Origin: Candidatus Nitrosocosmicus sp.
GTDB taxonomy: Archaea; Thermoproteota; Nitrososphaeria; Nitrososphaerales; Nitrososphaeraceae
Direction of reading: 5' to 3'
Assembly (NCBI GenBank): GCA_025934495.1
Contig: JAICXY010000026.1
Span: 1 to 35,692, forward strand
Length of the DNA stretch: 35,692 nt
A model generated the notes under the pieces. The model was not told the DNA's origin and did no database searches. It saw only the letters and a list, made by a program, of their open reading frames with translations. Positions 6,456 through 34,957 of this stretch are shown here, one piece after another. The stretch's first letter is position 1. Every line of letters begins with the position of its first letter. Both the position numbers and the translations under genes were made by a program.

Positions 6456-7583
6456 TTATCTATTTTGTAAAGTTTTATGCAATCGAATCATATGAAATAA
6501 AGTATTTTTATAAATTTCAATCCCCATCAAATACTCATGAATATAGATTTTCTCATCCACCGTATGAGAGGAATGCGGGTCTCCCGGTCCATATGTAACA
6601 ACAGGAATCTTAAGAACGTTACCTAGAATATTCATATCTCCTGTGCCGGTCTTTTTTAATAATAATGGTCTTTTTTTTCTATTATCCAAAATTGATAACA
6701 CCAAAGATCTTACCAAAGTAGAAGAAGCATTGGCTTGAAAAGGTTCTGTTTTATCCTCAACTTGATACTTTATCACAATCGCATCTTTATCTTTTCTTAT
6801 TTTATTAATATTTATATCAATTAGATTCAGAATATCATCACAAGATAAATGAGCAGGTATTCGAATATCAATAGTCATACGACATTTTTGAGGAGTAACA
6901 TTATGACTAGATCCTCCACTTATTTCTGTTACACTATAACTTACAAGATCTGCTTTATTTTTTGATTTATTAATATCATAACTATCCAAAACTTTTTTTA
7001 GATTGGCCCATATACTATAAATCTCTTCAATAGCATTCAAAGAAATCCATGGCGCACTTGCATGGGCACCACTATTTACATCACATAATATACGAATTTC
7101 CAATCGTCCTTTATAAGAGATAGTGATATTATCAATTCCACTTGGTTCACCAAAAATTGCATAATGAGGATTTAAACTTTTATCTTTAACAAGATTTTTT
7201 ATGCCCGTTGCATTACCTTCCTCATCCACAACTCCAGCAAAAATTATTGTACCATTTTGTTTCGGAAAATCTGCTGCTCCCAATAACATAGCCATCAAAG
7301 GCGCCTTTGCATCTGATGCACCCCTGCCATACATATAATCACCATCCAAACGAACAGGTACAATACCAGGAACCGTATCCATATGACCACAAAGTAATAT
7401 TATTGGGTCCCCTGTGCCCTTCATCGCAACAATGTTTCCTACGCTATCAATATTTGCTTTTTCAAAACCAAGATCCAAACAAACATCCTTCAAAAAAATA
7501 GCAAATTTTGTCTCTGATCTTGATGGCGAATATATTTCCAGCGAATTTTTTAATAACTCTATAGCAAATGTAGAAGAGACCAT
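6456..7583 (-). CDS. lysK: [LysW]-lysine/[LysW]-ornithine hydrolase LysK
   Basis: 375 aa, M20-family metallopeptidase. Metal-binding and catalytic motifs are visible: GHMDTVPG at 66-73, GRGASDAK at 86-93 and DEEG at 120-123. A dimerisation-type insert lies in the middle and a late metal-binding His (GDPHSSH) lies near the C-terminus. It releases lysine, and probably ornithine, from the gamma-carboxyl of the LysW carrier, the last carrier-bound step. It starts 5 bases after the lysX stop, so lysS-lysW-lysX-lysK look like one transcript. ArgE or DapE would share the fold, but context favours LysK. Confidence 0.92.
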   Translation of the reverse strand: MVSSTFAIELLKNSLEIYSPSRSETKFAIFLKDVCLDLGFEKANIDSVGNIVAMKGTGDPIILLCGHMDTVPGIVPVRLDGDYMYGRGASDAKAPLMAMLLGAADFPKQNGTIIFAGVVDEEGNATGIKNLVKDKSLNPHYAIFGEPSGIDNITISYKGRLEIRILCDVNSGAHASAPWISLNAIEEIYSIWANLKKVLDSYDINKSKNKADLVSYSVTEISGGSSHNVTPQKCRMTIDIRIPAHLSCDDILNLIDININKIRKDKDAIVIKYQVEDKTEPFQANASSTLVRSLVLSILDNRKKRPLLLKKTGTGDMNILGNVLKIPVVTYGPGDPHSSHTVDEKIYIHEYLMGIEIYKNTLFHMIRLHKTLQNR

Positions 7584-7588
7584 GGTTT

Positions 7589-8470
7589 TTATTTTTTTAG
7601 AATATTAACCATATGATTAACAATTAATGAGGGTATGTCAACTCCAGTTACTCGTACTGTATTTTTAAATTCAGTGGTATTATTTACTTCATGAACTACT
7701 AGACCATGATTTATACTTTCCATTAAATCTACACCTACTACATCGGCTTTAAAAATTTTCGCAGCAGTAAGACAAATATCTTCCAATTCCTTTGTAACAG
7801 GGCATAATTCAGCACGGCCACCCAAAGCCATGTTTGTCTTCCATTCATTATTGCCAGAATATCTATATATTGCAGCTACTATTTGATCACCTACAACAAT
7901 AGCCCTTATATCCCGAGGTGGTCTTTTGACAAATTCTTCAAGGTAATTAACATGGTATATAGGGAACATATGTTCCCGATCTTCTAAGACGGTTTTAACG
8001 GCTTCCTCATCGTTCAGTAGGCCAATCAACCGCCCCCAACTTCCAACAGTAGGTTTTATCACAACAGGATACCCAAATTTTTTAATCCCTTCAATAGCAG
8101 AAGAAGTAGAAAAGGAGCAAAAAGCATTAGGTGTGGCAATGCCTTGTTTTTGGAGCTCCATATGAGAAAATAATTTATTGCCGCACATAACAGAAGTATA
8201 AAGAGGATTTATCAACCGAGCTCCAAGTCCTTCCAAAGCAGCTGTAGAATGCATACTTTTAAAATAACCTACACACCTCTGCAGAATAACTTTATTTTCA
8301 AACTCTTTATTTTCACAATTCAAAAATAAAACAAGTTCTCTGCAATCAATTGCTTTTAAATCAATATCATTTTTTTTTGCATTTTCAATTATTGACTTTT
8401 CTTCCCATCTTATATTATCAAAAAGAATGTTGAGGGAAGAATTTCCTTCCTCGTTATTTATTGTCCCCAA
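7589..8470 (-). CDS. lysX: LysW:alpha-aminoadipate ligase LysX
   Basis: 293 aa, RimK-type ATP-grasp ligase. It uses ATP to join the alpha-amino group of alpha-aminoadipate to the C-terminal residue of LysW. The N-terminal NILFDNIRWEEK pattern and the C-terminal HEVNNTTEFKNTVRVTGVD segment match the LysX branch, whereas the paralogue at 13590-14462 has EINNTVEFRGASSATS. Position next to lysW supports LysX. The start is unusual: no ATG lies before the conserved domain, and the earliest candidate is TTG at 8470, inside the end of lysW (13-base overlap). A GAGGAAGG stretch just downstream could instead serve a later non-ATG start. The start is therefore uncertain. Confidence 0.9.
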   Translation of the reverse strand: MGTINNEEGNSSLNILFDNIRWEEKSIIENAKKNDIDLKAIDCRELVLFLNCENKEFENKVILQRCVGYFKSMHSTAALEGLGARLINPLYTSVMCGNKLFSHMELQKQGIATPNAFCSFSTSSAIEGIKKFGYPVVIKPTVGSWGRLIGLLNDEEAVKTVLEDREHMFPIYHVNYLEEFVKRPPRDIRAIVVGDQIVAAIYRYSGNNEWKTNMALGGRAELCPVTKELEDICLTAAKIFKADVVGVDLMESINHGLVVHEVNNTTEFKNTVRVTGVDIPSLIVNHMVNILKK

Positions 8471-8631
8471 TCCTCTCCAACTACTTGGGCAGGCTTTATA
8501 CTAAACTCGTCACCTGATTTTACTAATTCAAAACTTTCTCCACAATCAGGACAAGTAACTATTTCTCCTTGCATCGAGTCATTTGGTATTGGGACTTCTG
8601 CATCACATTCGGTACAATTAACTTTTGCCAT
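8458..8631 (-). CDS. lysW: Amino-group carrier protein LysW, ending in Gln
   Basis: 57 aa, too short for many gene finders. A zinc-binding N-terminal part (CTEC at 6-9 and CPDC at 27-30) is followed by an acidic tail ending EDWGQ. LysW carries alpha-aminoadipate (and glutamate in the arginine branch) on its C-terminal residue and presents it to LysX/ArgX, LysZ, LysY, LysJ and LysK. In the characterised Thermus and Sulfolobus proteins, as I recall them, the tail ends EDWGE and the final Glu gamma-carboxyl is the attachment point. Here the last codon before TAA is CAA (Gln). The start ATG lies 3 bases after the homocitrate synthase stop. Confidence 0.93.
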   Translation of the reverse strand: MAKVNCTECDAEVPIPNDSMQGEIVTCPDCGESFELVKSGDEFSIKPAQVVGEDWGQ

Positions 8632-8634
8632 TTT

Positions 8635-9843
8635 TTAATCCTTATTTGTTTTCATATAACCCTCATTAAGTATTTTTCTCTCCAATTTTTCATCTAAATA
8701 TAACTCAAGAATATCGCCCATACGCAATTCTTTTAATCCCTTTGCCAAAGATTCAGAATTTTCTTTCGATGCATCTAATCCCAATAAGGATAATAGATAA
8801 GCAGAACCGTTTTTACCAGATAATTCACCGAAGACAATTTGTCGCCTATTGCCTACTTGTTTAGGTTCGATTATTTCATAAGCAGAAGGATTTCGCAAGA
8901 TAGCAGCAAGGTGAGTTCCGGCTTTATGTTTATAAGCGCTTTCACCCACTAAGGGTTTGGATTCATGGATCGGAATGTGAGTGTATTCAGAAATAGTTTT
9001 AGATAGATCCCTTAGCATGTGTAATCTAAAATCATTATTAGATTTATAGATAAGATTTAATGCAACAGCAGTTTCTGCTAATGCAGGGATACCATTTCTT
9101 TCACCAAGCCCATCTATAGTTGTATGAATTTGATCGGCCCCTCCATTACATCCTGATAAGGCATTAGATAAAGCTAAACCAACATCGTTATGACAATGGA
9201 CATCTAAAGCAGTTTTTGAATTATCAATATTATCATGCACTAATTTTACTACATTATACATTCCTCTAGGTCTCATGATTCCAACTGTGTCGGGAATACT
9301 TATTCTTTCAATGCCACGAATATTTATTTCCCTGCACATATCCAATAGAAATTCAGGATCCGTCCTGCTTGCATCTTCCATAGTAAATCGAGATTTTAGT
9401 CCATGTGATTTAATGTAATCAGCCACATCTAAAGCTCTAATTTTAGCTTCTTCCCTGGATATTCGTAGTTTGGAAGACAAATGAATATCAGATATTCCAA
9501 GATAAGTGGCCACCCAAGTTGCATCACAATCTATTGCAACATCAATATCAGATTTTATTGCACGCACATGTGCTACGATGTCAGCTTTTAGTCCTTGTTT
9601 AAGTATTATTTTTGTAGCATCTCTATGATCTAGAGAAACTATTGGACTTATTTCTATTTGATCTACCCCAAATGAATCAAGCATCCACGCAATTTGAATC
9701 CGTTGTTTATTAGAAAAAGAAACACCCGGATGCTGTTCTCCTTCCCGTAATGTAGAATCCAAAATTTTAATATATTTATTATCATGTTTGGAATCATTAT
9801 ACAAATGCGCAAAATAATTAGGATCGTCTGATTTTAGTGACAT
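8635..9843 (-). CDS. lysS: Homocitrate synthase
   Basis: 402 aa, DRE-TIM/HMGL-like acyltransferase. DSTLREGEQ at 29-37 and HCHND at 216-220 supply the metal- and 2-oxoacid-binding residues. The family-typical GERNG segment follows near 247. It condenses acetyl-CoA with 2-oxoglutarate, the entry step to alpha-aminoadipate and lysine. The length is short of LeuA (about 500 aa) because the C-terminal LeuA regulatory domain is absent, which together with lysW context favours homocitrate synthase over isopropylmalate synthase or citramalate synthase. A TATA-like AT-rich stretch (about 9868-9885) upstream suggests it leads the lysS-lysW-lysX-lysK transcript. Confidence 0.88.
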   Translation of the reverse strand: MSLKSDDPNYFAHLYNDSKHDNKYIKILDSTLREGEQHPGVSFSNKQRIQIAWMLDSFGVDQIEISPIVSLDHRDATKIILKQGLKADIVAHVRAIKSDIDVAIDCDATWVATYLGISDIHLSSKLRISREEAKIRALDVADYIKSHGLKSRFTMEDASRTDPEFLLDMCREINIRGIERISIPDTVGIMRPRGMYNVVKLVHDNIDNSKTALDVHCHNDVGLALSNALSGCNGGADQIHTTIDGLGERNGIPALAETAVALNLIYKSNNDFRLHMLRDLSKTISEYTHIPIHESKPLVGESAYKHKAGTHLAAILRNPSAYEIIEPKQVGNRRQIVFGELSGKNGSAYLLSLLGLDASKENSESLAKGLKELRMGDILELYLDEKLERKILNEGYMKTNKD

Positions 9844-9993
9844 ACTATAATTAATAATACTATTATCGTTTAATTTATAAATGTTATAGTCAAAAACAAT
9901 AATATACTATATGTAAAAAAACATTAATTAATGGAATTCACCATGTATTTATTAATCAACAAAAAATAAGAAATTACAAAAATAAGAAGTATT

Positions 9994-10428
9994 TTAAGTA
10001 TAATTACCAAGAGTTCTCAATATTATAACAGTGTTAGTATCAGAAACACCCTCGATTTTTCTTATCTCATCTATATATGAATTAATTTCTAATATTGTAG
10101 GAGCAATAATTATAGTAGCAATATCATATTGTCCAGTTATTTCATAAACTACTTCGATACCTTTGAGACTCAAAAGATGATTTGAAACATTTGATGTGTC
10201 AGCTGTAGAACTTACAGAAATCAAAGTTATTGCACTAGTTTTATTAGATGGTCCCATATCTATTGTAAATTTTTTTATTATTCCGACATCTTGTAAGTTT
10301 TTTACTCGACGCCTAACAGCTGATTCAGACATCCCAATTTCATTTGCAATATCTACAAAAGATTTTCTTGAATCGTTCTTCAATATTTTAATAATTTTTT
10401 CATCTATAGAATTTAAGTTCTCAGACAT
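9994..10428 (-). CDS. Lrp/AsnC-family transcriptional regulator (LysM-like)
   Basis: 144 aa from ATG 10428 (MSENLNSID...). An N-terminal winged HTH (about 10-60, with SRKSFVDIANEIGMSESAVRRRVKNL) is followed by a RAM/ligand-binding ferredoxin-like domain (about 70-140). A start six codons upstream (10446) is possible, but GGAG lies about 10 bases before 10428 and fits as its ribosome binding site. It overlaps the end of lysJ by 8 bases, so it is translated with the lysY-lysZ-lysJ genes. Sulfolobus LysM is an Lrp-type regulator in the same pathway, so amino-acid-responsive control of this region is likely. The ligand is inferred. Confidence 0.88.
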   Translation of the reverse strand: MSENLNSIDEKIIKILKNDSRKSFVDIANEIGMSESAVRRRVKNLQDVGIIKKFTIDMGPSNKTSAITLISVSSTADTSNVSNHLLSLKGIEVVYEITGQYDIATIIIAPTILEINSYIDEIRKIEGVSDTNTVIILRTLGNYT

Positions 10429-11617
10429 TTCTTCTTTTCTCCTCATTATAAAGTAATTTATCTATCAAATTAATTGCCTTTTTAGTTATGTCTTCATCCA
10501 TTACCAAAGGTGGAAGTAATCTTAAAATGTTTCTACCGGAATATAATAATAAAATTCCACTTTTAATTCCATCAAATAGAATATCTTTGATATCAAATTT
10601 CATTTCTATTCCCATCATCATTCCAAATCCTCTTATCTCACGAATTATTTTATGAGTATCTTTTAAATCTAACAGACCTTCTTTAAACATTTTACCTATT
10701 TTCTCGGAATTTTCAACTAATTTATCCTCCACTAAGGAATCTATTGTGGCAGAGCCTGCCGCACAGGCAAGAGGATTTCCGGCAAATGTCGATGAATGTT
10801 CACCTACTTTAATACAATCAAGAATTTCAGAACGTAAAAGTGTTAGACCCATAGGTATTCCTCCAGCAATCCCCTTTGCTAAGCACATAATATCAGGTTT
10901 AATGTCCCAATGCTGTCCTGCCCACATCTTTCCAGTTCGTCCCAATCCTGACTGAATTTCATCAAATATTAATACCAATCCATGTTTATCACAAATACTA
11001 CGAATTTTTTTTAGAAAATCAACAGGTGGAACAATTATTCCTGTTTCACCTTGTATTGGTTCAACAATTATTGTTCCAATTTTATTATTCGGCCCATTTA
11101 CCAATTCTTCAATTTTCTCAGAATCACTGTATGAAACAAAGTAAACATCATCTAATAAAGGCAAAAAAGATTTACGATATTTTTCATTATAGGTAACAGA
11201 TAATGCTCCAAATGTTTTTCCATGATAAGCACCATTTAATGCAATAATGCCAGTTTTTTTGGTATATTTTCTAGAGAACTTGATAGCTGCTTCTACAGAT
11301 TCAGCACCGCTATTAGCAAAAAATACCTTATTTAGATTTGTAGGTGCAATGGTAAAAAGTTTATTTAAAAAATCTAATCTAGTATCATTGTATAAAGATA
11401 TGTGACAAGTTATAAGCTGTTCGGCTTGTTTTTTTATTGCATTAATTACTCTATCATTACAATGTCCAACTAAAGCAACGCCATAACCACCCATACAATC
11501 GATGTATTCTTTTCCATCAATATCCCAAAGAGTACAGCCCTTGCCTTTCTTTATGCTGACTGGAAATCGCTGATATATATTTCCAACAAAATTTTCTTCA
11601 TTTATATTATAGTTCAT
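10421..11617 (-). CDS. lysJ: [LysW]-aminoadipate semialdehyde/glutamate semialdehyde transaminase LysJ
   Basis: 398 aa, class III (ArgD-type) PLP aminotransferase. FDEIQSG at 218-224 and the PLP-binding Lys248 (MCLAKGI) are in place, with NSGAE at 102-106 and a TTFAGNP-like SSTFAGNPLAC segment later. It converts carrier-bound semialdehyde to LysW-lysine, and probably LysW-ornithine, using glutamate. Its ATG overlaps the lysZ stop by one base (TAATG), indicating translational coupling. ArgD or GABA aminotransferase share the fold, but neighbours decide for LysJ. Confidence 0.92.
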   Translation of the reverse strand: MNYNINEENFVGNIYQRFPVSIKKGKGCTLWDIDGKEYIDCMGGYGVALVGHCNDRVINAIKKQAEQLITCHISLYNDTRLDFLNKLFTIAPTNLNKVFFANSGAESVEAAIKFSRKYTKKTGIIALNGAYHGKTFGALSVTYNEKYRKSFLPLLDDVYFVSYSDSEKIEELVNGPNNKIGTIIVEPIQGETGIIVPPVDFLKKIRSICDKHGLVLIFDEIQSGLGRTGKMWAGQHWDIKPDIMCLAKGIAGGIPMGLTLLRSEILDCIKVGEHSSTFAGNPLACAAGSATIDSLVEDKLVENSEKIGKMFKEGLLDLKDTHKIIREIRGFGMMMGIEMKFDIKDILFDGIKSGILLLYSGRNILRLLPPLVMDEDITKKAINLIDKLLYNEEKRRNV

Positions 11618-12414
11618 TACATAATCACCGTACAGTTATTATGCGATAATGCAGATAAAATAGGATTTTTCACCGATCCCGATGCAATAATTGTTTTATT
11701 AACCCCCAATGCTAACGCTTCTGTACTGGCCAATATTTTTTTTTCCATCCCTGGTCCGATTCTAGGCAACAATTTTTTAGCTTCTTCCAACGTAAGATTA
11801 TGTACTAATTTTTCTTCAATTATTAAACCATTAACATTTGTAATAAAAATAACAACATCAGATTCCAATGCACCCGCAATATTTGCAGCAGCTCTATCAC
11901 CATCGATATTCAAGAATTCGTATTCTTCTCCCAATGCTATAGGAGAAATCACAGGAAGATAACCATTACTTAATAGAATATTGATCAATTTTGGATCAAT
12001 ATTAGATATTTTTCCAGTATAACCACCATCAATAATCATTTTTCTACCTTTTTCATTCAAAATAATTAATTTTTTCTTTCGTTGGGCTCTAATAGTTTCG
12101 CCGTCTACTCCAGTTATCCCAACAGATAATATACCTTTGCTAGATAACATTGCTGTAATGTTTTTGTTTATTCTACCAGACATTACCATGGTATATATCA
12201 TCGATGTCTCTTTATCAGTATACCTGCTTCGTTTACCTTCTGGTGACATTATAAAATTTTGTTCTTTACCCATTAATGTGGCAATACTAGTAACATCTTT
12301 TCCACCACCATGAACCACTACAATTTTTTCTCGTTTAGATAATTCAACAAAATCATCCAATATAGAAGAATGCAATTCTTCTACAATACTTCCGCCTATT
12401 TTAATAACAATCAT
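11617..12414 (-). CDS. lysZ: [LysW]-aminoadipate/[LysW]-glutamate kinase LysZ
   Basis: 265 aa, amino acid kinase family (ArgB-like). The N-terminal IKIGGSIVEE and VVHGGGKDV motifs bind the phosphoryl acceptor and ATP, and the VIFITNVNGLI and GPGMEKKI regions are nucleotide-binding. It phosphorylates the free side-chain carboxyl of carrier-bound aminoadipate or glutamate. Its ATG overlaps the lysY stop in an ATGA junction (4 bases). Only one such kinase is present here for two ligases, so it probably serves both lysine and arginine branches. Confidence 0.93.
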   Translation of the reverse strand: MIVIKIGGSIVEELHSSILDDFVELSKREKIVVVHGGGKDVTSIATLMGKEQNFIMSPEGKRSRYTDKETSMIYTMVMSGRINKNITAMLSSKGILSVGITGVDGETIRAQRKKKLIILNEKGRKMIIDGGYTGKISNIDPKLINILLSNGYLPVISPIALGEEYEFLNIDGDRAAANIAGALESDVVIFITNVNGLIIEEKLVHNLTLEEAKKLLPRIGPGMEKKILASTEALALGVNKTIIASGSVKNPILSALSHNNCTVIM

Positions 12415-13463
12415 ACAGGTGTAATTGGAGTAAATTTAAGTCCCATCATTTCGTCATACCCACACATTACATTCATATTTTGTATTGCGGATCCTGCAGC
12501 ACCTTTCATTAGATTATCTGATGCAGAAAGAGATACAACTCGTTTGTTATCCTCATCTAAATCAAATCCGATATCGCAAAAGTTAGATCCTATCACAAAT
12601 TTAGGATCTGGAAATTTATAAAACCCGTTTTTATCTCGTATTAATCGAATAAAAAACTCATTTTTATATGCATTTCTATAAATTTTCCATAAATCAATTT
12701 CGTTTAATGGCTTTTTCAAAAATACATGATTAGTAGTCAATATACCCCGAACCATGTTAACAGCATGAGGAGTCATGCTAACATGAATTGTACTATTGGA
12801 AAGCAAACTTAATTCTTGCTCAATTTCTCCAGTATGACGATGTTTTGCAGGTTTATAAGGCCTAATAACTCCATACCGCATTGCATGATGAGTCCCCGCA
12901 TTTGCTTTACCTCCAGCACCCGATGAACCTATTTTACTATCAACAATAATGTGATCATTATCAATTAAATCATTTTCTATTAAAGGTTTTAATGCAAGTA
13001 AAGAAGTAACTGCCATACATCCTGGGCATGAAACTAATTGAGCTTTTTTTATTTCTTCTCGATGGATCTCAGGTACACCATAAGTTGATTTAGTCAATAA
13101 ATCAGGGTATGGATGCTCCCATCCATACCATTTTATATAATCATCAGGATTTTTAAGTCTAAAGTCTGCCGAGAGATCTACTATCTTTATTCCACTCTTA
13201 AAGATTTCATTAACAATTTTATTAGATTTTCCATGAGGCACAGATACAAAAACTATATCACAAGAATTTACTAGTTTATCTAAATTCATATCTTCAAATG
13301 ACAAAGTAACAAAATTTTTTAGGCTAGGATGAACTCTATGAACGTATTCTCCGGACTTTTGTCTCGATGTAACCATTGATATTTCTACCTGTGGATGAGT
13401 GACTAGGAGACGTAACAACTCTCCACCTACAAATCCAGATGCTCCGATAACCCCAACTTTCAA
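12411..13463 (-). CDS. lysY: [LysW]-aminoadipyl/glutamyl phosphate reductase LysY
   Basis: 350 aa, ArgC-type dehydrogenase. A Rossmann motif (GASGFVGGELLRLL) opens the protein, and the catalytic Cys149 sits in SCPGCM. It reduces the acyl phosphate made by LysZ to the semialdehyde with NADPH. The start codon is TTG at 13463 (MKVGVIGASG); GGAGG at 13471-13475, 7 bases upstream, supports it and an ATG alternative is absent. It is the first gene of the tightly packed lysY-lysZ-lysJ-lrp block and follows argX by 126 bases. Confidence 0.93.
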   Translation of the reverse strand: MKVGVIGASGFVGGELLRLLVTHPQVEISMVTSRQKSGEYVHRVHPSLKNFVTLSFEDMNLDKLVNSCDIVFVSVPHGKSNKIVNEIFKSGIKIVDLSADFRLKNPDDYIKWYGWEHPYPDLLTKSTYGVPEIHREEIKKAQLVSCPGCMAVTSLLALKPLIENDLIDNDHIIVDSKIGSSGAGGKANAGTHHAMRYGVIRPYKPAKHRHTGEIEQELSLLSNSTIHVSMTPHAVNMVRGILTTNHVFLKKPLNEIDLWKIYRNAYKNEFFIRLIRDKNGFYKFPDPKFVIGSNFCDIGFDLDEDNKRVVSLSASDNLMKGAAGSAIQNMNVMCGYDEMMGLKFTPITPV

Positions 13464-13470
13464 TGGAAAT

Positions 13471-13475
13471 CCTCC
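13471..13475 (-). promoter_or_regulatory. Shine-Dalgarno site fixing the TTG start of lysY
   Basis: GGAGG on the minus strand, 7 bases upstream of the TTG start. It decides a non-ATG start that would otherwise be doubtful. Confidence 0.75.
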
Positions 13476-13589
13476 ATATAGAGAATATCATTTTTACCAT
13501 TAAACAATATATTATCAACACAGAATCTCATAAACAATAAACCGTTTAATTATCCTCATTTAAATTTTTGGTCATACATTAATATTTGT

Positions 13590-14462
13590 TTAGATTTTTT
13601 GAATGTCTTTTATATAGTCAATCATCAATTTTGCTATATCTATACTAGTTGCAGAGCTCGCGCCTCTAAACTCTACAGTGTTATTTATTTCATGGACCAA
13701 TAATCCATGCTGTTCATCCTCCATCATATCGACTCCTAAAATACCTATTCCTACTGCTTTAGCAGCTTTAATAGCAATGTTTTCTAATTCCGATGTTATT
13801 TTTATCATTTCTGCTTTTCCGCCTCTTGAAACATTGGTTCTCCATTCATCGCTAGATGAGTATCGATAAATAGCAGCTACTACCTGTTCCCCAATAACGA
13901 TACAACGGATATCCCTTGGTGGCCTTTTTATCAATTCTTGAAAATAATAAATATTTGAAAATGGACTAGAACTCTCTTGCCTCATTTCAACAATCATTTT
14001 ACCTACTTCTTTATTTCTAACAGGGAAAACTCCTCTACCCCAAGAACCAATTACAGGTTTGAAAACAAGAGGATTATTTTTCAGATCTTGTTGATTAACG
14101 ATGTTAAAAGCAGAATCAGCGTTAAAAGAGAAAAAGGATTTAGGAGTTGGAACATTATTTCTTTTCAAAATCATAGAAGTTAATAATTTATTTCCACATA
14201 TTTCTCCAATTTTCGAATTGTTTATTACCTTATATCCCAGCAATTCTAAACAATTTGTCAGAAATTGACCTCTGAAATAACTAATACTTCTTTGTAAAAT
14301 GACATCTCCATAATCCAAATTATTATTAGTCAAATAATCTGTATTTAGAATAACATTTTTTGAATCAATTAGATTGACTTCGATTCCAATTTTTATGGCT
14401 GTCTCATATAGAGATTTTTCTTCAAAACGTAATTTATCAAAGAAAATACCTAATTTGACCAT
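13590..14462 (-). CDS. argX: LysW:glutamate ligase ArgX
   Basis: 290 aa, RimK-type ATP-grasp ligase and clear paralogue of LysX in this window: both share LRFEEKSLYE/IRWEEKSIIE near the N-terminus and RPPRDIR(C/A)IV(I/V)G. The substrate-side segment differs (EINNTVEFRGASSATS against EVNNTTEFKNTVRVTG). It follows argG by 2 bases on the same strand, so it is the likely arginine-branch enzyme that loads glutamate on LysW. Assignment of ArgX against LysX rests on context plus this motif. Product amino acid preference could be tested only biochemically. Confidence 0.85.
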   Translation of the reverse strand: MVKLGIFFDKLRFEEKSLYETAIKIGIEVNLIDSKNVILNTDYLTNNNLDYGDVILQRSISYFRGQFLTNCLELLGYKVINNSKIGEICGNKLLTSMILKRNNVPTPKSFFSFNADSAFNIVNQQDLKNNPLVFKPVIGSWGRGVFPVRNKEVGKMIVEMRQESSSPFSNIYYFQELIKRPPRDIRCIVIGEQVVAAIYRYSSSDEWRTNVSRGGKAEMIKITSELENIAIKAAKAVGIGILGVDMMEDEQHGLLVHEINNTVEFRGASSATSIDIAKLMIDYIKDIQKI

Positions 14463-14464
14463 TT

Positions 14465-15670
14465 TTAAGCATTATTACGTGCAATTACTGAATTAGCAGT
14501 AATAGATTGCAAACCCCACAATTCCACAAAACCTTTTGCTATAGTTTGGTCAAATGTTGAATTTGATAAATAAGTAGCAATATTATTATTATATAATGAA
14601 AACTTTGAATCTCTCCCTATTACCCTGTAATATCCATTATGCATTTTAATCTTTATTTTTCCAGTTACCCGCTCTTGAGTTTTTTCTATAAATTGATTCA
14701 AATCAGAAAATAAAGGATCTAACCATAATCCAGAATAAGCTAGCCAAGACCACTGCTCCTCTACAATCGCTTTAAATCGGAGTTCATGATTTGTTAGTGT
14801 TAATTTTTCAAGATCTTTATGTGCATTTATAAGAATTAAAGCGGCAGGAGCTTCATATACTTCCCTCGATTTTATGCCTATAACTCTATCTTCAATGTGA
14901 TCAATAATACCTATCCCAAATGAACCAGCAATTTCATTTAATTTATTTATCAAGTAAGGCAGTTTTTCCATTTTACCATCCAAAGATACTGGAATACCTT
15001 TTTCAAAATCTAATTCTATAGTACCTACAGAATTGTTATTGAATTTAACATATTCAAAAGCATCTTCTAACGGTTCGTTATCAAGATCTTCGAGAATACC
15101 CCCTTCGATTGATCTACCCCATAAATTTTTATCAATACTATACTTTTTTGATATTTCACTAATTCTAATACCATTTTCTTTAGCAAAATCTATTTCTTTA
15201 TCCCTGGAAAGGTTTAGATCACGAATAGGAGCAATGATACTTAAATTTGGATCTAAGGACTTGATTGTGACATCAAATCGAATTTGATCGTTACCCTTTC
15301 CTGTACAACCATGAGCAACGGATGTAGCATTATATTTGTTAGCTATTTCTACAGACTTTTTCGCTATCAATGGACGAGCAATAGCTGTGGCAAGTGGATA
15401 GTTTTGCTGGTAGAGAGCATTTGATTTTATTGCCGGAACAACATATTCATTAACAAATTCTTCTTTAGCATCAACATATATATGATCTATAGATCCCAAA
15501 CTTGAGGAAATTTTTTCGATCTCTTTAAAATCATCACCTTGTCCTATATCTACCGTTAAAGTAATTACATCTAAATTATGGTTCTTTTGTAAATATTTTA
15601 CACATACAGATGTATCAAGTCCGCCTGAAAACGCAAGAACAACTTTATTCATAGCAGGCGAGCGTGACAT
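14465..15670 (-). CDS. argG: Argininosuccinate synthase
   Basis: 401 aa, full family length. The N-terminal PP-loop AFSGGLDTSV binds ATP, and the AHGCTGKGNDQ motif and C-terminal synthetase/oligomerisation region are present. It joins citrulline and aspartate in arginine synthesis. A second Met six codons in (15652, MNKVVLAFSGG) matches the usual family start, so the true start may be there. argG leads an argG-argX pair separated by 2 bases. argH and the carbamoyltransferase are not in this window. Confidence 0.96.
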   Translation of the reverse strand: MSRSPAMNKVVLAFSGGLDTSVCVKYLQKNHNLDVITLTVDIGQGDDFKEIEKISSSLGSIDHIYVDAKEEFVNEYVVPAIKSNALYQQNYPLATAIARPLIAKKSVEIANKYNATSVAHGCTGKGNDQIRFDVTIKSLDPNLSIIAPIRDLNLSRDKEIDFAKENGIRISEISKKYSIDKNLWGRSIEGGILEDLDNEPLEDAFEYVKFNNNSVGTIELDFEKGIPVSLDGKMEKLPYLINKLNEIAGSFGIGIIDHIEDRVIGIKSREVYEAPAALILINAHKDLEKLTLTNHELRFKAIVEEQWSWLAYSGLWLDPLFSDLNQFIEKTQERVTGKIKIKMHNGYYRVIGRDSKFSLYNNNIATYLSNSTFDQTIAKGFVELWGLQSITANSVIARNNA

Positions 15671-27507: not shown

Positions 27508-27548
27508 GATATATTAATTTTATAAAAATGTGGATTAACCTTCCATTA

Positions 27549-27686
27549 CTTTGTTGCATCATTATTAAAATAGTTCTTTGTAAACGGTTGTTTATTGAAT
27601 CATGACAGAAATAGTGAAAAGTAGAGTACCATTGTTCTAAATGGACCATAGTTTTAACTAACTGTTTTTTGGATTATGTAATAAAG
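27549..27686. mobile_element. MITE-like element, copy B
   Basis: About 138 bp, no ORF. Left end ctttgttgcatcatt and right end attatgtaataaag are imperfect inverted repeats. It aligns with copy A at 23383-23522 along most of its length (shared gaaatagtgaaa and taactgtttttt blocks) with many substitutions. It lies just upstream of ribL. Confidence 0.7.
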
Positions 27687-28506
27687 CATAGAAAATCTAA
27701 AAAGATAGGTATATGCGAGACATATTTATAGAATATTCCTTCTAAAAAAATAATCGTAGAAGATGATTATTTAAAGTTGAAAAATATGATGCTAATGACT
27801 TAATATCGTTATATCAATTAAATTTACGGTAAAATATATCTCAGATAAAATCGAGAAAAATGGAACAATCCGAATGGATACAATATAATGTTTATACATA
27901 TTGAAAATTTGTTAAAAAGATATTATAGTATAACATATAAAATAAATTTTTTTAGTATGCCAACAACATAAAATCAAAACCTATGATGTCTCAGTACTCA
28001 TAATCTTCTTCACCAACATTTAAAGTATCAGACGGCTCTTCGTTGTCATCATTGACATCAACAAAACTCATAACCAAAATCAATATATTCTTTTTAATTT
28101 AATGGTAAATCATAGATAAACCGGTCAAATCACGGTGGTAAAATTAAAAGAAATATAGCTTATTCTCTAATATCCCAAATAGTAAATTTTAATAATTTTT
28201 ATCTCAATACTAGACATATGTTCATAGTAATGAATTATTGCACATATTTTAAAAAGATCAAACAAGTTAATTAAAGATATCGAACTTTTATTCGTCTTAT
28301 AATTTAGATATAGATCTAATAGTAAATATTATTGGTTCTAAATTATTGAAATCCTATGCCTAAGACAGATATTTGTTCAATAGTAGATAAATATGTTGAT
28401 ACAACAGTTTGATGATTCCTTGTTTTTTTGTACATCGATAAGGATGGATATATTATTTCAGCAGAGAATACAATAATAAGCAATATTTACAAAGAAAAAG
28501 AGTTTA
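27687..28506. other. AT-rich intergenic stretch
   Basis: Apart from a possible 26-codon ORF at 27991-28071, no coding pattern, RNA signature or repeat stands out. A short plus-strand reading at about 28420-28495 (FLYIDKDGYIISAENTIISN) resembles part of an extracellular sensor domain but has no start, stop context or continuation, so it is noted only. Confidence 0.5.
27991..28071 (-). CDS. Possible 26-aa acidic peptide
   Basis: ATG at 28071 gives MSFVDVNDDNEEPSDTLNVG and six more residues ending EDYEY, strongly acidic. It reads more like coding sequence than the flanking low-complexity DNA, but is short and has no ribosome binding site I can name. It could be the tail of a lost gene or chance. 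Confidence 0.3.
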   Translation of the reverse strand: MSFVDVNDDNEEPSDTLNVGEEDYEY

Positions 28507-28521
28507 TCCCGCGAGCAGGAT

Positions 28522-28551
28522 TTGCCCCAAAAAATAACTTTTATTTTTTGT
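28522..28551 (-). other. Non-canonical tRNA intron in the T-loop
   Basis: A 30-nt insert after A58 of tRNA-Tyr, with a near-perfect internal hairpin (CAAAAAATAA/TTATTTTTTG). Boundary placement can slide by a base or so because of the A-rich bulges. Confidence 0.75.
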
Positions 28552-28572
28552 TTGAGCCTGCGACTCTTCGGT

Positions 28573-28628
28573 CACTGCTAGATGTAAGCCTGATAGGCTG
28601 ATTTTGGTTAGCAATTAGTTGCCAACAG
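28573..28628 (-). other. Canonical tRNA intron (37/38) of tRNA-Tyr
   Basis: A 56-nt intron directly 3' of position 37. The exon segment CTGT (32-35) pairs with intron GCAG, giving the 4-bp central helix between two 3-nt bulges that the splicing endonuclease recognises. Confidence 0.88.
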
Positions 28629-28685
28629 CTACAGCCGAAAGCTCTACCAGGCTGAGCTACCGCGGGACATTTAAATTTAAAATTA

Positions 28686-28698
28686 ATTATATATAATC
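28686..28698 (-). promoter_or_regulatory. TATA box (box A) of the tRNA-Tyr gene
   Basis: Minus-strand gattatatataat, about 20-32 bases upstream of the tRNA 5' end, in the right window for an archaeal box A. Not tested. Confidence 0.55.
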
Positions 28699-28884
28699 TA
28701 ATCGTAAACAGAAGCGGCCCTGTTAACATTGATGTAGATGATATGTTATAGCATCTGGTAAATTAGTTGTGTTTTTCTTTTGCCATCATTATGCCTTTAT
28801 CTTACTATTGTAATTTATGATTATGAGGATTTATTCCCCCTCAAAATGTTTACCCCAGATAACGAAAAGAACCATCTATACCTA

Positions 28885-29435
28885 ATGTCTGAAGATAAAA
28901 ATCAGGACATAGAGCCAAAATAATCCTACTCAAAAATGATGGATATACAATACCATAAATAAGAAAGATAACAACTCACCGTGACCATAACATAAGAAAA
29001 TGGATGCATAAATTCAATGAAAAAGGAATTGATAGTATTATATCAAAAAAGCATAATCATAAGTAGCAGAACAAATTTACTGATAACTTGGAGAAACAAA
29101 TAGTAGAAATAGCATTTTCAAATCCAAGGGATGATTTTAGTTTGGGATTTTCCACATGGTCATTACGGATATTAGCAGGCTTTTGTATATGCGGCTTAAA
29201 AACGGTAGTTAAAAAGCTATTATGCTGAAATAAGAAATATGCTTTTGAAGCACAATATAAAATAGAGAAAATCTAAAACCATGTTTTATCTAATAAAAGC
29301 AAAGATACAGCAAAATATGCTTTGAAAAAAAGTACATCGAACAGCTAAGACGCAACACTCTTATTCCATTCTTTTATATATAGACAAGGAGACCAATAAC
29401 AGAAAGTACCCATGGTGGTTCATGATGATCATCAG
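28885..29435 (+). pseudogene. IS630-family transposase, broken
   Basis: Starting MSEDKNQDIEPK, then after stops and frameshifts RKWMHKFNEKGIDSIISKKHNHK (helix-turn-helix with its linker), NKFTDNLEKQIVEIAFSNPRDDFSLGFSTWSLRILAGF, and later a LYIDKE segment near 29380 that may be the DDE Asp region. These blocks are typical of the HTH-plus-DDE layout of IS630/Tc1 elements. The DE half after it is largely gone. No clear terminal repeats or TA duplication identified. Confidence 0.7.
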
Positions 29436-29880
29436 TTCAAGTTTTGTTTCACACACTTTTTTCTTTCATTCAACATATAAACAAATAGACAAAAAGCCAC
29501 TGTTGCACCGATAATGATCAGCCCCATTAAAACTGAAATTATTTGCTCGTTTCAATTAAAACATGATATATTTACCAGACATTTTAAAAAAATCAATTGT
29601 TTAAAAATAGATCTATTGTATAATTAACACCTAACAAAATTTTAGATTATAGATGAAATTATGTAATATTACATTTTAATTTGCTGATTACGATCAAGTC
29701 ATATTCAATCATTAGAAATTTTTCTAATGATCTTAATTATGCAAAAGATCTAATATAATTCATCTGATGATTTTTTACAACATATTAGTTAGTAATCTTC
29801 TGACGATAACTTCACAGTCCATTAACAAAAGTTTATTATCCTAGTAAACCAATATATTGTTTTTAACTATTTAGCAAATT
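29436..29880. other. Intergenic region upstream of the small membrane protein
   Basis: No gene or repeat recognised. An AT-rich aatatattgt at 29851-29860, about 30 bases before the ATG at 29881, could be a TATA box for that gene. Confidence 0.45.
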
Positions 29881-31070: not shown

Positions 31071-32057
31071 TTATTTATCTAGAATTTTTTTTAATAATTT
31101 AAAAATAAAGTAAGAGATAATTTTATCCGCGCCAGCTCTTCTAAGTGACAATAAAGAAAGAATACACCATTCGGTTTCATCTAGCCATTTCTTTTCTGCA
31201 GCAGCCTTTATTAATGCATACTCCCCAGAAACATTTTGAACGACCAATGGTTTTTCAATAAATGTCTTTAACTCTTTTACAATATCCATATACCAAAAGG
31301 AAGGCTTTATCATTACCCAATCAGCACCCTCGTCAATATCAAGAATTATTTCTCGTACTGATTCTCGAAAATTATGATAACTATTCTGATATAAAGATTT
31401 ATCAATTAAATTGGATTGAAAGAAATTATTACTTCTAAATGGAGAATACAAACAAGAATTATGTTTTGAAGAATAACTCATTATTTTCACATTATTAAAA
31501 TTATTATTTTCTAATATTTTTTTTAAATAGAGTACTTGTCCATCCATCATAGAAGATGGCGCAATATAATCAGTTCCCGATTCAGACAAGCTTAAAGATA
31601 TCTTTCCTAATATTTTCAAAGTTTTATCATTATCAATTAAGGTATCCATATTGTTTAGATCGGTTTTTTTTCCTCCACCATTATTACGATAAATTCCACA
31701 ATGACCTGAAGTATTATATTGACACAGACATACATCAGAAATAATGTTTATTTTATCGCCAAAATTTTCCTTGATTCTTTTAATCGATTTTTGAGCAATT
31801 CCATTTTTTCCATACGACGAAGTCCCTAAAGAGTTTCTGCTTTTGGGTATTCCAAAAATAAGCATATTATAAATCTTTAAATCAACCAAACTCTGAATAA
31901 ACTTAGAAATATTTTTTATAAAAACCTTGGAATCATTTAGATACTCCAATTTTAAACTATTTCTAAAAGTTGTTTCATTTTCGTAAATAAAAATAGGAAA
32001 AATAAAGTTATCAATATTGTCAAAAATATTCAACAGATTTTTTAAATTTATAAACAA
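31071..32057 (-). CDS. Divergent porphobilinogen synthase (HemB-like)
   Basis: 328 aa, about normal for HemB. Zinc-type cysteines are intact (Cys110, Cys112, Cys120 in DVCLCQYNTSGHCG), as are both Schiff-base lysines (Lys198 in SYSSKHNS, Lys251 in VMIKP), APSSMMDGQV and VSGEYALI. HemB joins two 5-aminolevulinate molecules into porphobilinogen. Many positions outside the active site differ and the composition is rich in I/N/K. It ends the AAA-ligase-GNAT-HemB block, 20 bases after the GNAT stop. It could be the cell's only HemB or a paralogue in another pathway; the window cannot decide. No other haem gene is here. Confidence 0.82.
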   Translation of the reverse strand: MFINLKNLLNIFDNIDNFIFPIFIYENETTFRNSLKLEYLNDSKVFIKNISKFIQSLVDLKIYNMLIFGIPKSRNSLGTSSYGKNGIAQKSIKRIKENFGDKINIISDVCLCQYNTSGHCGIYRNNGGGKKTDLNNMDTLIDNDKTLKILGKISLSLSESGTDYIAPSSMMDGQVLYLKKILENNNFNNVKIMSYSSKHNSCLYSPFRSNNFFQSNLIDKSLYQNSYHNFRESVREIILDIDEGADWVMIKPSFWYMDIVKELKTFIEKPLVVQNVSGEYALIKAAAEKKWLDETEWCILSLLSLRRAGADKIISYFIFKLLKKILDK

Positions 32058-32077
32058 TCAGTATTAAATTTAACGGT

Positions 32078-32926
32078 TTATAGTCGATAGATCAGAGTGG
32101 TATAAAGTTTTACAAATCCCTTTTTTTCATAAAAATTTAATAAACCGTCACTTTTTAAAGTTTGAAGTCCAAAAATTTGGTACCCCTTATCTTTCCCAAA
32201 CTTAATCGAAAAATCTAAAAGATTGGTTGCCACGTGTTTATGCCTATACTCTTTTTTAGTACCCAAGCAATATAGAGAAATGCTGCCTCTGTAAGGAAAT
32301 AGAATGCAGCAACCCACAGTATTCCCGTGGGTTTCATTTATACCATTTATTTTGAATGATATGAAGTAAAAGATCCCAAATTTTTTCTTTAAAATCTCAT
32401 AAATCAAATATTTTTTTCTAGAACTAATACCAAAAGATAAGCAGTAAATATTTACCCACTCCTTTAAGGTATCAATATCATCAATTACTATAATTTTAGA
32501 TAAATTAGAATAATTCTCCGAAGAGTTAAAATTTTCGGTAAGAATGGATAGATCAAAATAATAAGGATAGTATAAACCAATTACTTCATCGATTTTTTCA
32601 AAACCTTTTTTTACCAAATAATCTTCCAAAAGCGTTTGGTCAGAGTTTAAATGCAAATAAAAATTAATTTTTTCATTTTTTGATATATTGTTTAAAGAAT
32701 GTATTATTTTTTCAATCTGATTTTTATTTTTTAAAAATAGATTAGTATTTTTTTTAATAATAGTCCTGTTTATAAAATAATCATCAAACAAATCTTTATT
32801 ATATAAAGTTAAAAATTCATTATTAAAATCCCAAATCACGGAATCCCAATTTTTACAAAAATATAACTCGTTTTTTTTTAATATTTTAATAATATTTGAG
32901 TCCAAGTATTTCAAGCATCCTACCAA
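32078..32926 (-). CDS. GNAT-family acetyltransferase
   Basis: 282 aa. The C-terminal about 130 residues are a GNAT domain: GCCILFPYRGSISLYCLGTKKEYRHKHVATNLLDFSIKFGKDKGYQ gives the beta4 and the acyl-CoA loop (RHKHVA), followed by FYEKKGF. The N-terminal half (about 1-135), ending EDYLVKKGFEKI, looks like a degenerate second GNAT unit, so the protein may be a double-GNAT like MshD. The ATG at 32926 overlaps the end of the CysRS-like gene by 41 bases; a later TTG is also possible. Substrate is unknown. Close coupling implies action on the ligase product (inference). Confidence 0.7.
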   Translation of the reverse strand: MVGCLKYLDSNIIKILKKNELYFCKNWDSVIWDFNNEFLTLYNKDLFDDYFINRTIIKKNTNLFLKNKNQIEKIIHSLNNISKNEKINFYLHLNSDQTLLEDYLVKKGFEKIDEVIGLYYPYYFDLSILTENFNSSENYSNLSKIIVIDDIDTLKEWVNIYCLSFGISSRKKYLIYEILKKKFGIFYFISFKINGINETHGNTVGCCILFPYRGSISLYCLGTKKEYRHKHVATNLLDFSIKFGKDKGYQIFGLQTLKSDGLLNFYEKKGFVKLYTTLIYRL

Positions 32927-34010
32927 TTAATAAAGAATTTCTAGTTTTGTCCAATACTTGCAAAATCAATTCTAATGCAGATGCCGTGTCATAGTCATCA
33001 TATAAAAAGCTTAAAAACCTTTTCATTATTGGTTTTTCTATGTTTTTGTTTGAATGAAAACTATTTTTGTCCTCTAACAAAAAACTTGTAATATTTTTAT
33101 CGTGTTCATTTGCTTTATCAAGATCTTGGTTGGAAAATTCGATATCTGTTTTATAATTTTTTGAGAGAAAGTATAATTTTAACGTATTTGGATTATAAGT
33201 TTTTAAAATATTCGATATGGAAACAGTATTACCTGTAGAATTGGACATCTTTTCTGAATTAATATTTACAAGACCTATATGGAGCCATTTTTTTTTATAT
33301 AGCATTTTACTATTTTCATTTATTTTTTTTGAAATTTCATCAATAAATTCATGATGAGGATATAACAATTCTCTTGCACCACCATGCATATCGTAATCAC
33401 CATTAAACACATTCTTTATAATTTCATGATCTTGAAAGTGCCACCCTGGAATCCCACTAGTCAATATTCTTTTATAAATTTCATTATTACCTTCATCATC
33501 TTTTTTTTTATATTCTTGATAAAAATTTTCAGAATTCCAGATCATAATATCCCTTTGTTTACTTTTACCACAAGATATATCGATGGGCATATTATCAATA
33601 TCGTTCAAATCCAATCCAAAAGGACTAGCAATATCTCCAGTTATTTTTAGGTAAACGTTTCCAGCATACATATATCCTTTTTTTGAATTCAGAATACCAA
33701 TAACATCGCTTTTAATTAAGGATAAAAAATTAGAAACTCGACTGTAAATAAAATTTTTTTCTACTTGAATATTATTTAAATCTTCAAAAAGAAATGAAAG
33801 AAATTTGTCAGATATATTCGCAATATTTATAGAATTGGGATAATCTTTTTGGTAAATTTTATGATCAATATCAGTCAACTGCAATATAGCAATAGGCCAA
33901 TCTCCTATAAAGCGATGAAAATTGATCAAAAAATTAAAAAAAATAAATATTCTGGCATGTCCTATATGGCATCTCTCATATAGTGTTGGACCGCAAATAA
34001 ATATTTTCAA
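32886..34010 (-). CDS. CysRS-like class I ligase, truncated and with altered zinc site
   Basis: 374 aa against about 460 for CysRS. HIGH (15-18), CGPT with Cys6, TDIDHK, PGWH (188-191), PHHE (218-221) and KMSNS (254-258, KMSKS in CysRS) are clear. Relative to E. coli CysRS, the zinc ligand Cys209 aligns with Asp194 and Glu238 with Ile; Cys28 and His234 remain as Cys6 and His219. The N-terminal lead-in of about 20 residues and the anticodon-binding C-terminus are absent, and a partial DALR-like helix region ends the protein. It should still activate a carboxylic amino acid with ATP, but zinc-based Cys selection is doubtful. MshC, which makes Cys-GlcN-Ins, is another CysRS paralogue lacking the anticodon domain, but keeps zinc. 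Overlaps the GNAT gene. Confidence 0.8.
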   Translation of the reverse strand: MKIFICGPTLYERCHIGHARIFIFFNFLINFHRFIGDWPIAILQLTDIDHKIYQKDYPNSINIANISDKFLSFLFEDLNNIQVEKNFIYSRVSNFLSLIKSDVIGILNSKKGYMYAGNVYLKITGDIASPFGLDLNDIDNMPIDISCGKSKQRDIMIWNSENFYQEYKKKDDEGNNEIYKRILTSGIPGWHFQDHEIIKNVFNGDYDMHGGARELLYPHHEFIDEISKKINENSKMLYKKKWLHIGLVNINSEKMSNSTGNTVSISNILKTYNPNTLKLYFLSKNYKTDIEFSNQDLDKANEHDKNITSFLLEDKNSFHSNKNIEKPIMKRFLSFLYDDYDTASALELILQVLDKTRNSLLIGRMLEILGLKYY

Positions 34011-34174
34011 AGTCGAATCTTTGGTTTATTAATATTTAATCCTTATATTTTTGTTTACTAGCATATGTATCTCTTTGGATCGTATGCTATACCAAGCAAA
34101 ATAAAAAGGTAATAAAAGGCAAGTAATTATATTTCAGTCGTATATAAAAGGATGTAAATCAAGCAAATTGATTA
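34011..34174. other. Gap between the AAA+ and CysRS-like genes
   Basis: 164 bases. On the minus strand an AT-rich aaaaatataagg (about 34041-34052) sits 30-40 bases before the CysRS-like start and could be its TATA box, which would separate the AAA+ gene from the downstream trio. Another tatataaaagg is on the plus strand near 34141-34151. Confidence 0.4.
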
Positions 34175-34957
34175 TTATTTCTTTTTATATTGTTTCAAAG
34201 TTTCAATAATCAAATCTACATCTTCAACATTTTTCGAAAGTCTACCTATTTTAATACAATCTCTTATATCTTTTGACTTTAATTTGTTCCAAACCAGATA
34301 TGCAATTTGTTTTGAAATATTTGACTCAAGATTACATTCTTTCAATAGAAGGTGTTTAGTAATTGTTAGAAATGAATCATAATCATATTTCTTGAAATAT
34401 AAAATGAGGAATCTAGATAACAGAGGCGTCAGTAATTTTTTTTCATCATTACAGGATGCAAAAACCCAGGTTTTCATAACAGCCTTTCTGGTTTTTCCAA
34501 ATTTTGTTTCACTTAATATACCTGTTTCCATTAAGCTTAAAAGTACGGCTTGATCCTTAATTGGCATATATTCAATTTCATCAATAATCAAATTCCTTGG
34601 TCTGCTTGTAAATAAATAATCCACCATACCGGCTTTTGTGCTATGACTTCCAAGTGTAAAATAAGAACGTTGAAAATTCATACATTCCATCAAAAACAAA
34701 GTTTTTGCAGAACCTGGAGGTCCAACCAATAAAATATGTACAGGTAACTGTGAAGATATAACAAAAGAAAATATTTTCTTTATGTTATTATAACCTATAA
34801 TATTTTCAAAAAGAGTAGTGCATGATTTTGAAATCCCAGATTCACAATCATCATCTATAGCATCAGTTAATGCAGATTTGTCATAAAACTTGTCTTTCAA
34901 ATTTATTTTCTTATTTTTTCGTCTATTGCTATCTAAATCAGTAACATAATCAAACAT
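34175..34957 (-). CDS. AAA+ ATPase, MoxR/RuvB-like
   Basis: 260 aa. Walker A GPPGSAKT at 79-86, Walker B LIIDEIEY near 123-130, sensor-1 Asn170 (FASCND) and arginine finger region near 182 (LLSRF), then a small helical lid to about 245. The N-terminal about 50 residues are polar. A stand-alone, compact motor of this type usually remodels a partner protein or nucleic acid complex. It is upstream of the CysRS-like gene on the same strand with 164 bases between, so co-transcription is possible but not shown. No partner (such as a VWA protein) is next to it. Confidence 0.75.
   Translation of the reverse strand: MFDYVTDLDSNRRKNKKINLKDKFYDKSALTDAIDDDCESGISKSCTTLFENIIGYNNIKKIFSFVISSQLPVHILLVGPPGSAKTLFLMECMNFQRSYFTLGSHSTKAGMVDYLFTSRPRNLIIDEIEYMPIKDQAVLLSLMETGILSETKFGKTRKAVMKTWVFASCNDEKKLLTPLLSRFLILYFKKYDYDSFLTITKHLLLKECNLESNISKQIAYLVWNKLKSKDIRDCIKIGRLSKNVEDVDLIIETLKQYKKK

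Follow-up and report, generated by a model that had tools for sequence, protein, structure and literature searches.

A CysRS-like ligase, a GNAT, and a tyrosine-ended small protein as a putative conserved archaeal system

The four-gene block and its protein families

Four minus-strand genes of Candidatus Nitrosocosmicus sp. raise the question of whether they form one biosynthetic system and, if not, which of them belong together. They lie in the window, i.e., the whole stretch of DNA analyzed, which comprises positions 1 to 35,692 of contig JAICXY010000026.1 (assembly GCA_025934495.1). In the following, G denotes genomes (G000 is that of the window), f families (f1 is that of the window), L loci, and C contigs. 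The four genes are:

34175..34957, minus strand: AAA+ (MCM/MoxR-like) ATPase, 260 aa (MCM/MoxR-like AAA P-loop, E = 1e-8)
32886..34010, minus strand: CysRS-like aminoacyl ligase, 374 aa (tRNA-synt_1e, E = 3e-48)
32078..32926, minus strand: GNAT acyltransferase, 282 aa (GNAT, E = 2.5e-8)
31071..32057, minus strand: HemB2, second porphobilinogen-synthase paralog, 328 aa (ALAD, E = 5e-92)

Open reading frames and profile matches agree with the strand and the families named in the first-pass annotation, and the tight linkage it described was confirmed: the ligase and GNAT reading frames overlap by 41 nt, and 20 nt separate GNAT from HemB2. Its remark that the block is rich in Ile, Asn, and Lys describes a real difference (30.5% I+N+K vs. 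24.7% in nine other window proteins), but this is mostly a reflection of the low-GC genome (GC of 0.263 in the block and 0.294 in the window). The four genes themselves are far above chance; the contested point is their grouping into one system. Elsewhere, the window's genome carries a full-length cysS (C5:20299; 402 bits, compared to 168 for the CysRS-like window gene) and a hemB (C175:46984; 453 bits, compared to 308 for the HemB-like window gene). Both window copies are therefore paralogs, and neither is the sole copy in the genome.

The window ligase keeps the HIGH (as HIGH) and KMSKS (as KMSNS) motifs and lacks the anticodon domain, comprising 374 aa compared to ~455–503 aa for canonical CysRS in the same genomes. 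Regarding the zinc ligands, which we take to be Cys28, Cys209, His234, and Glu238 in E. coli numbering, the second cysteine (position 209) is replaced by Asp in each of the 24 aligned paralogs (WHFQD in the window protein). Invariant features of the family are C28, D209, H234, HIGH, and KMSKS; position 238 is variable (E, H, D, I, L), with a two-residue insertion at Glu238 in the window protein, and Asp229 is replaced by Glu in most paralogs. The window ligase reaches 174.5 bits with the cysS equivalog TIGR00435 (cut-off 340; the comparison with the cut-off applies to the window protein, and other family members match the profile better than it does) and 104.7 bits with the MshC profile TIGR03447 (cut-off 485.1). 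Phylogenetically, the canonical CysRS clade stands apart from the paralogs (support 0.999). With the anticodon domain missing and Asp at position 209, the ligase is not a normal CysRS, and it is not MshC either. In G029, the sole full-length CysRS found (~470 aa; C139:5841-6881, L220) reads WHIED and groups with the paralogs; Asp209 may thus be compatible with cysteine.

The GNAT combines a degenerate N-terminal half with a C-terminal GNAT domain, and the window protein exceeds the gathering thresholds of PF13508 (34.6 vs. 27 bits) and PF00583 (31.3 vs. 20.7 bits). Profile matches comprise NatE, YpeA, and RimI-like enzymes, NatE and the RimI type being alpha-amine acetyltransferases. The MshD profile TIGR03448 matched two of 16 GNATs (best E = 3e-4) and gave no match for the window protein. 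The CoA pyrophosphate motif [RQ]xxGx[GA] is of the RGRGIG type in most families and degraded to RHKHVA in the window's clade. An AF2 model of the GNAT (four sequences) was poor, with a mean pLDDT of 39. Given RHKHVA in the GNAT, and the lost Glu238 and KMSNS in the ligase, activity may differ in the window's clade.

Judging by its motifs, HemB2 probably acts as a second PBG synthase or as a close variant of one. Every PBG-synthase catalytic motif checked is intact, which applies to the two active-site Lys, the zinc cysteines CxC...GHC, VSGE, and ISY, and the score with PRK09283 is 300 bits (cut-off 297). HemB2 proteins form a well-supported clade (1.000) with the signature VVQNVSGEY in the genus and xxQNVSGE variants in other genera; the housekeeping copy reads AAYSVSGEY. 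In three other f1 genera (L113, L121, L123), HemB2 adjoins a family-2 glycosyltransferase and an unknown 200-aa protein, and aIF5A is also found beside it in two of the three.

Elsewhere in the window, positions 6456-15670 hold a LysW-type lysine/arginine biosynthesis cluster (M20 peptidase, HMGL-like, class III aminotransferase, semialdehyde dehydrogenase, argG), which is probably itself a carrier-protein pathway. Positions 27508-29880 form a 2.4 kb stretch with no ORF of ≥80 aa. The translation of a small ORF within it (28541-28729) resembles that of a tRNA (AVAQPGRAFGC...RRVAGSN), yet neither ARAGORN (bacterial mode) nor Rfam returned a hit.

Distribution of the block among relatives

We compared 41 related genomes, 25 from f1 and 16 from outside this family, of which 22 encode the CysRS-like/GNAT pair. 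Within the window's genus, about 11 of 15 genomes retain the order AAA+, ligase, GNAT, HemB2, a count that takes in one genome with a broken AAA+ gene and one in which no AAA+ was detected, with the locus at a contig edge. Conservation of the four-gene block is limited to this genus. At L028:7224-7927, in-frame stops split the AAA+ gene and ligase, GNAT, and HemB2 are open, which reflects decay or an assembly error. Four congeners (G002, G003, G004, and G006) have AAA+ beside HemB2 with the middle pair missing. The distance between the two genes is 276–449 bp in G003, G004, and G006, where the flanks are otherwise the same and tblastn revealed no relics of the pair in between (best E = 0.17); in G002, both genes are likewise close. 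Outside f1, the pair stands without HemB2 or AAA+ in unrelated surroundings and in many families. HemB2, in turn, is present in all 25 f1 genomes, including all ten that lack the pair, and a second HemB was found in none of the 16 relatives outside f1.

Since the pair occurs without HemB2 and AAA+, and these occur without the pair, we regard both as neighbors and rejected them as parts of a system. Of the single system suggested earlier, the ligase paralog and the GNAT remain as a conserved unit; the same gene order recurs within the window's genus, and outside f1 the pair stands alone. Likewise, of the set for which the first-pass annotation knew no described system, the ligase/GNAT unit is apparently undescribed, and HemB and AAA+ as members found no support. 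The first-pass annotation further had the HemB-like enzyme form a pyrrole-type or related unit, so that all four genes would act in one pathway ending in this step. The compact same-strand order in about 11 of 15 congeners speaks for such a pathway; however, it is largely refuted by the pair lacking HemB2 or AAA+ outside f1 and by HemB2 persisting in the ten pair-less f1 genomes. As the motifs of HemB2 are those of an ordinary PBG synthase, the pyrrole-type step found no support either, and we consider the four-gene pathway highly improbable.

Partners encoded outside the block

Two proteins encoded outside the block, a small protein termed A3 and a metallopeptidase-like protein, appear from co-occurrence and linkage to be the real partners of the pair. 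A3 comprises 80–110 aa and is poorly conserved apart from the motif LDxDEG[IV]R and the C-terminal residue, which is Tyr in all 35 complete copies despite low overall identity. Pfam and PDB profile searches returned no relatives, and no DNA-binding domain is recognizable. Among the 41 relatives, A3 is present in all 22 pair-positive and two of 19 pair-negative genomes (Fisher p = 1e-9, an optimistic value because genomes were treated as independent and shared ancestry was ignored). In a phylum sample of 299 genomes, nine have a strong GNAT match (E < 1e-40), and A3 is encoded in every one of them. Copies without a detected pair were found in G019, G028, and G193, possibly due to incomplete assemblies.

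The gene for A3 divergently adjoins the pair in f4, f6, f8, f11, f12, f14, f17, f44, and f59 and, within f1, in two genera (G015 and G020). In four f9 loci it lies ~1 kb upstream of the pair, and in G067 the distance is ~4.5 kb. In the window's genus, the two are unlinked (C121:9838-10131 in G000; 86 kb apart in G013), yet A3 accompanies the pair there as well. Both the pair and A3 are missing from G002, G003, G004, and G006. G008, which has kept both, falls among these four in the HemB2 tree, which suggests more than one joint loss of pair and A3, with one node being weak (0.125). At the f9 locus L154:6600-7579, the end of a PAC2-family (proteasome assembly chaperone) gene and the A3 gene share 4 nt.

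The peptidase-like protein has 160 aa, an HExxH motif, and a weak M78/IrrE match (E = 0.0018). Outside f1, it occurs in 18 of 18 A3-positive and three of 22 A3-negative genomes (p = 1e-8, with kinship ignored); within f9, it is found in all six pair-positive and none of the 11 pair-negative genomes. Its gene directly adjoins A3 in f44 (G209), and the distance is 2–3 kb in f9 and ~1 kb in G311 (f59). At E ≤ 1e-5, neither the window's genome nor any other in f1 yielded a copy. Relatives without A3 or a detected pair are encoded in G033 (f10) and in G259 and G269 (f18); f18 also carries a distant two-domain GNAT.

Candidate chemistry and competing readings

Composition, co-occurrence, and linkage of the system are well supported by these sequence comparisons, and its chemistry is what we infer from them. 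We tentatively propose, short of even confidence, that ligase, GNAT, and A3, joined by the peptidase outside f1, form a conserved system of Thermoproteota, mainly Nitrososphaerales, in which A3 would be a carrier or substrate. Enzymes with the class I aaRS fold adenylate the carboxylate of a free amino acid, and the aminoacyl-AMP needs an amine acceptor. The ligase would adenylate an amino acid with ATP and hand it to an amine acceptor without tRNA decoding, and the GNAT would then acylate the new alpha-amine, following the logic of MshC to MshD. A3 with its fixed C-terminal Tyr would be the carrier or substrate that the enzymes recognize, and trimming or release of the product may fall to the peptidase, much like in carrier-protein pathways of the pearlin or LysW type. 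Because a C-terminal Tyr offers no amine acceptor, either the Tyr carboxylate itself would be activated or the Tyr would be a recognition element; it may have a structural or regulatory role instead. The bolder version, a new kind of carrier-protein pathway in which an aaRS-derived class I ligase places an amino acid on A3 or next to it, the GNAT acylates it, and a dedicated metallopeptidase releases the product, is conceivable but on balance unlikely.

Several known systems resemble this set in part. The LysW amino-group carrier system likewise has a small acidic protein with a conserved C-terminal residue, a ligase, and a metallopeptidase. It differs in its ligase, which is an ATP-grasp enzyme, and A3 resembles no Pfam family detectably. 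Pearlin pathways (TglA/TmoA carrier, PEARL ligase, metalloprotease; PMC9303977) share a small ribosomal protein with the C-terminal end as fixed feature, and modifying enzymes besides an amino-acid ligase and a metallopeptidase. Here, however, the ligase is class I aaRS-like (tRNA-synt_1e), no PEARL (LanB-like) ligase domain was found among the conserved neighbors of the pair, and A3, with its conserved central motif, looks like a folded domain. The pearlin carrier is modified at its C-terminus; of such a modification in A3, the invariant Tyr is suggestive only. Clusters with a MetRS paralog (PMC2922099) also encode a class I aaRS paralog, a predicted peptide ligase, together with a GNAT, but the pair described here is archaeal and of the CysRS lineage, and no cupin, lysine monooxygenase, or ACP genes adjoin it.

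The closest enzymatic precedent is mycothiol synthesis, where MshC, a CysRS paralog without anticodon domain, acts as a tRNA-independent ligase alongside the GNAT MshD (PMC2922099, PMC9437257). A discussion of thiols in ammonia-oxidizing archaea names ergothioneine and gshA, and leaves mycothiol unmentioned (PMC7554672). In a mycothiol-like small-molecule pathway, the ligase would join an amino acid, possibly Cys, to an acceptor of the amino-sugar or inositol type, the GNAT would acetylate the product, and A3 would merely be an accessory or regulatory subunit. The gene for inositol-1-phosphate synthase (MIPS) adjoins the pair or lies near it in f9, G015, and G016; judging from the loci, however, this looks like old gene order shared by f1 and f9, and we rejected MIPS as a partner. 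Further points against this reading are the scores far under both the MshC and MshD cut-offs, the Asp in place of a zinc-ligand Cys, and PIG-L (MshB), which is absent from the pair-positive G027, G029, G034, G035, and G040 and present in many pair-negative genomes. Mycothiol also has no counterpart to A3 or the peptidase, so the invariant Tyr terminus and the peptidase are left without explanation. We therefore rejected membership in the mycothiol pathway on MshB co-occurrence and the MshC/MshD scores and retain the analogy; a mycothiol-like pathway of this kind seems unlikely.

The divergent arrangement of A3 and the pair in most families, together with the peptidase's M78/IrrE match, would also fit a switch, with A3 as a repressor divergent to the operon and cleavage of A3 by the peptidase turning ligase and GNAT on, just as ImmA cleaves ImmR and IrrE cleaves DdrO. 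Such a repressor would have no recognizable DNA-binding domain and an unusual fixed last residue, though, and A3 is unlinked in the window's genus and the peptidase absent from f1; we keep this reading as a serious but improbable rival. We give a slightly poorer chance still to a role in translation, in which the ligase would modify a special tRNA, like CysRS*, or aIF5A (cf. EpmA/PoxA on EF-P), with the GNAT acting on the residue. Anticodon-less aaRS paralogs do modify a tRNA or a translation factor elsewhere (PMC9437257), and in f9 the pair borders on deoxyhypusine synthase (DHS), as does A3 on spermidine synthase in G311. The DHS gene, however, is convergent with the pair and was dismissed as a partner, as it is there in f9 only. 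A partner tRNA was rejected as well: ARAGORN detected no tRNA within the window, and in related loci none lies close to the pair, the nearest being tRNA-Gly and tRNA-Glu at ~1–2.4 kb in a single locus (L108). CysRS*, also a CysRS paralog that lost the anticodon domain, has its own tRNA (PMC9437257), whereas the consistent partners here are the GNAT and A3, for which a translational role leaves no place.

Regarding the system of ligase, GNAT, A3, and peptidase that we propose, the literature searched contained no description of this set and no paper in which both Nitrosocosmicus and a cysteinyl-tRNA term are mentioned. While the logic of ligase and GNAT is already known, the partnership with A3 and the peptidase and the archaeal setting appear to be new. 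aaRS paralogs working outside translation have been a productive source of new chemistry, e.g., mycothiol, EF-P lysylation, and cyclodipeptides. The system would add a three- to four-part archaeal example, found in soil ammonia oxidizers and deeper relatives, with a small partner of no known family that ends in an invariant Tyr. As pair and A3 are kept or lost together among congeners, close relatives in culture lend themselves to a test of its function. In the bolder carrier-pathway version, the product would be a metabolite or protein tag made mainly by non-marine ammonia-oxidizing archaea and their relatives.
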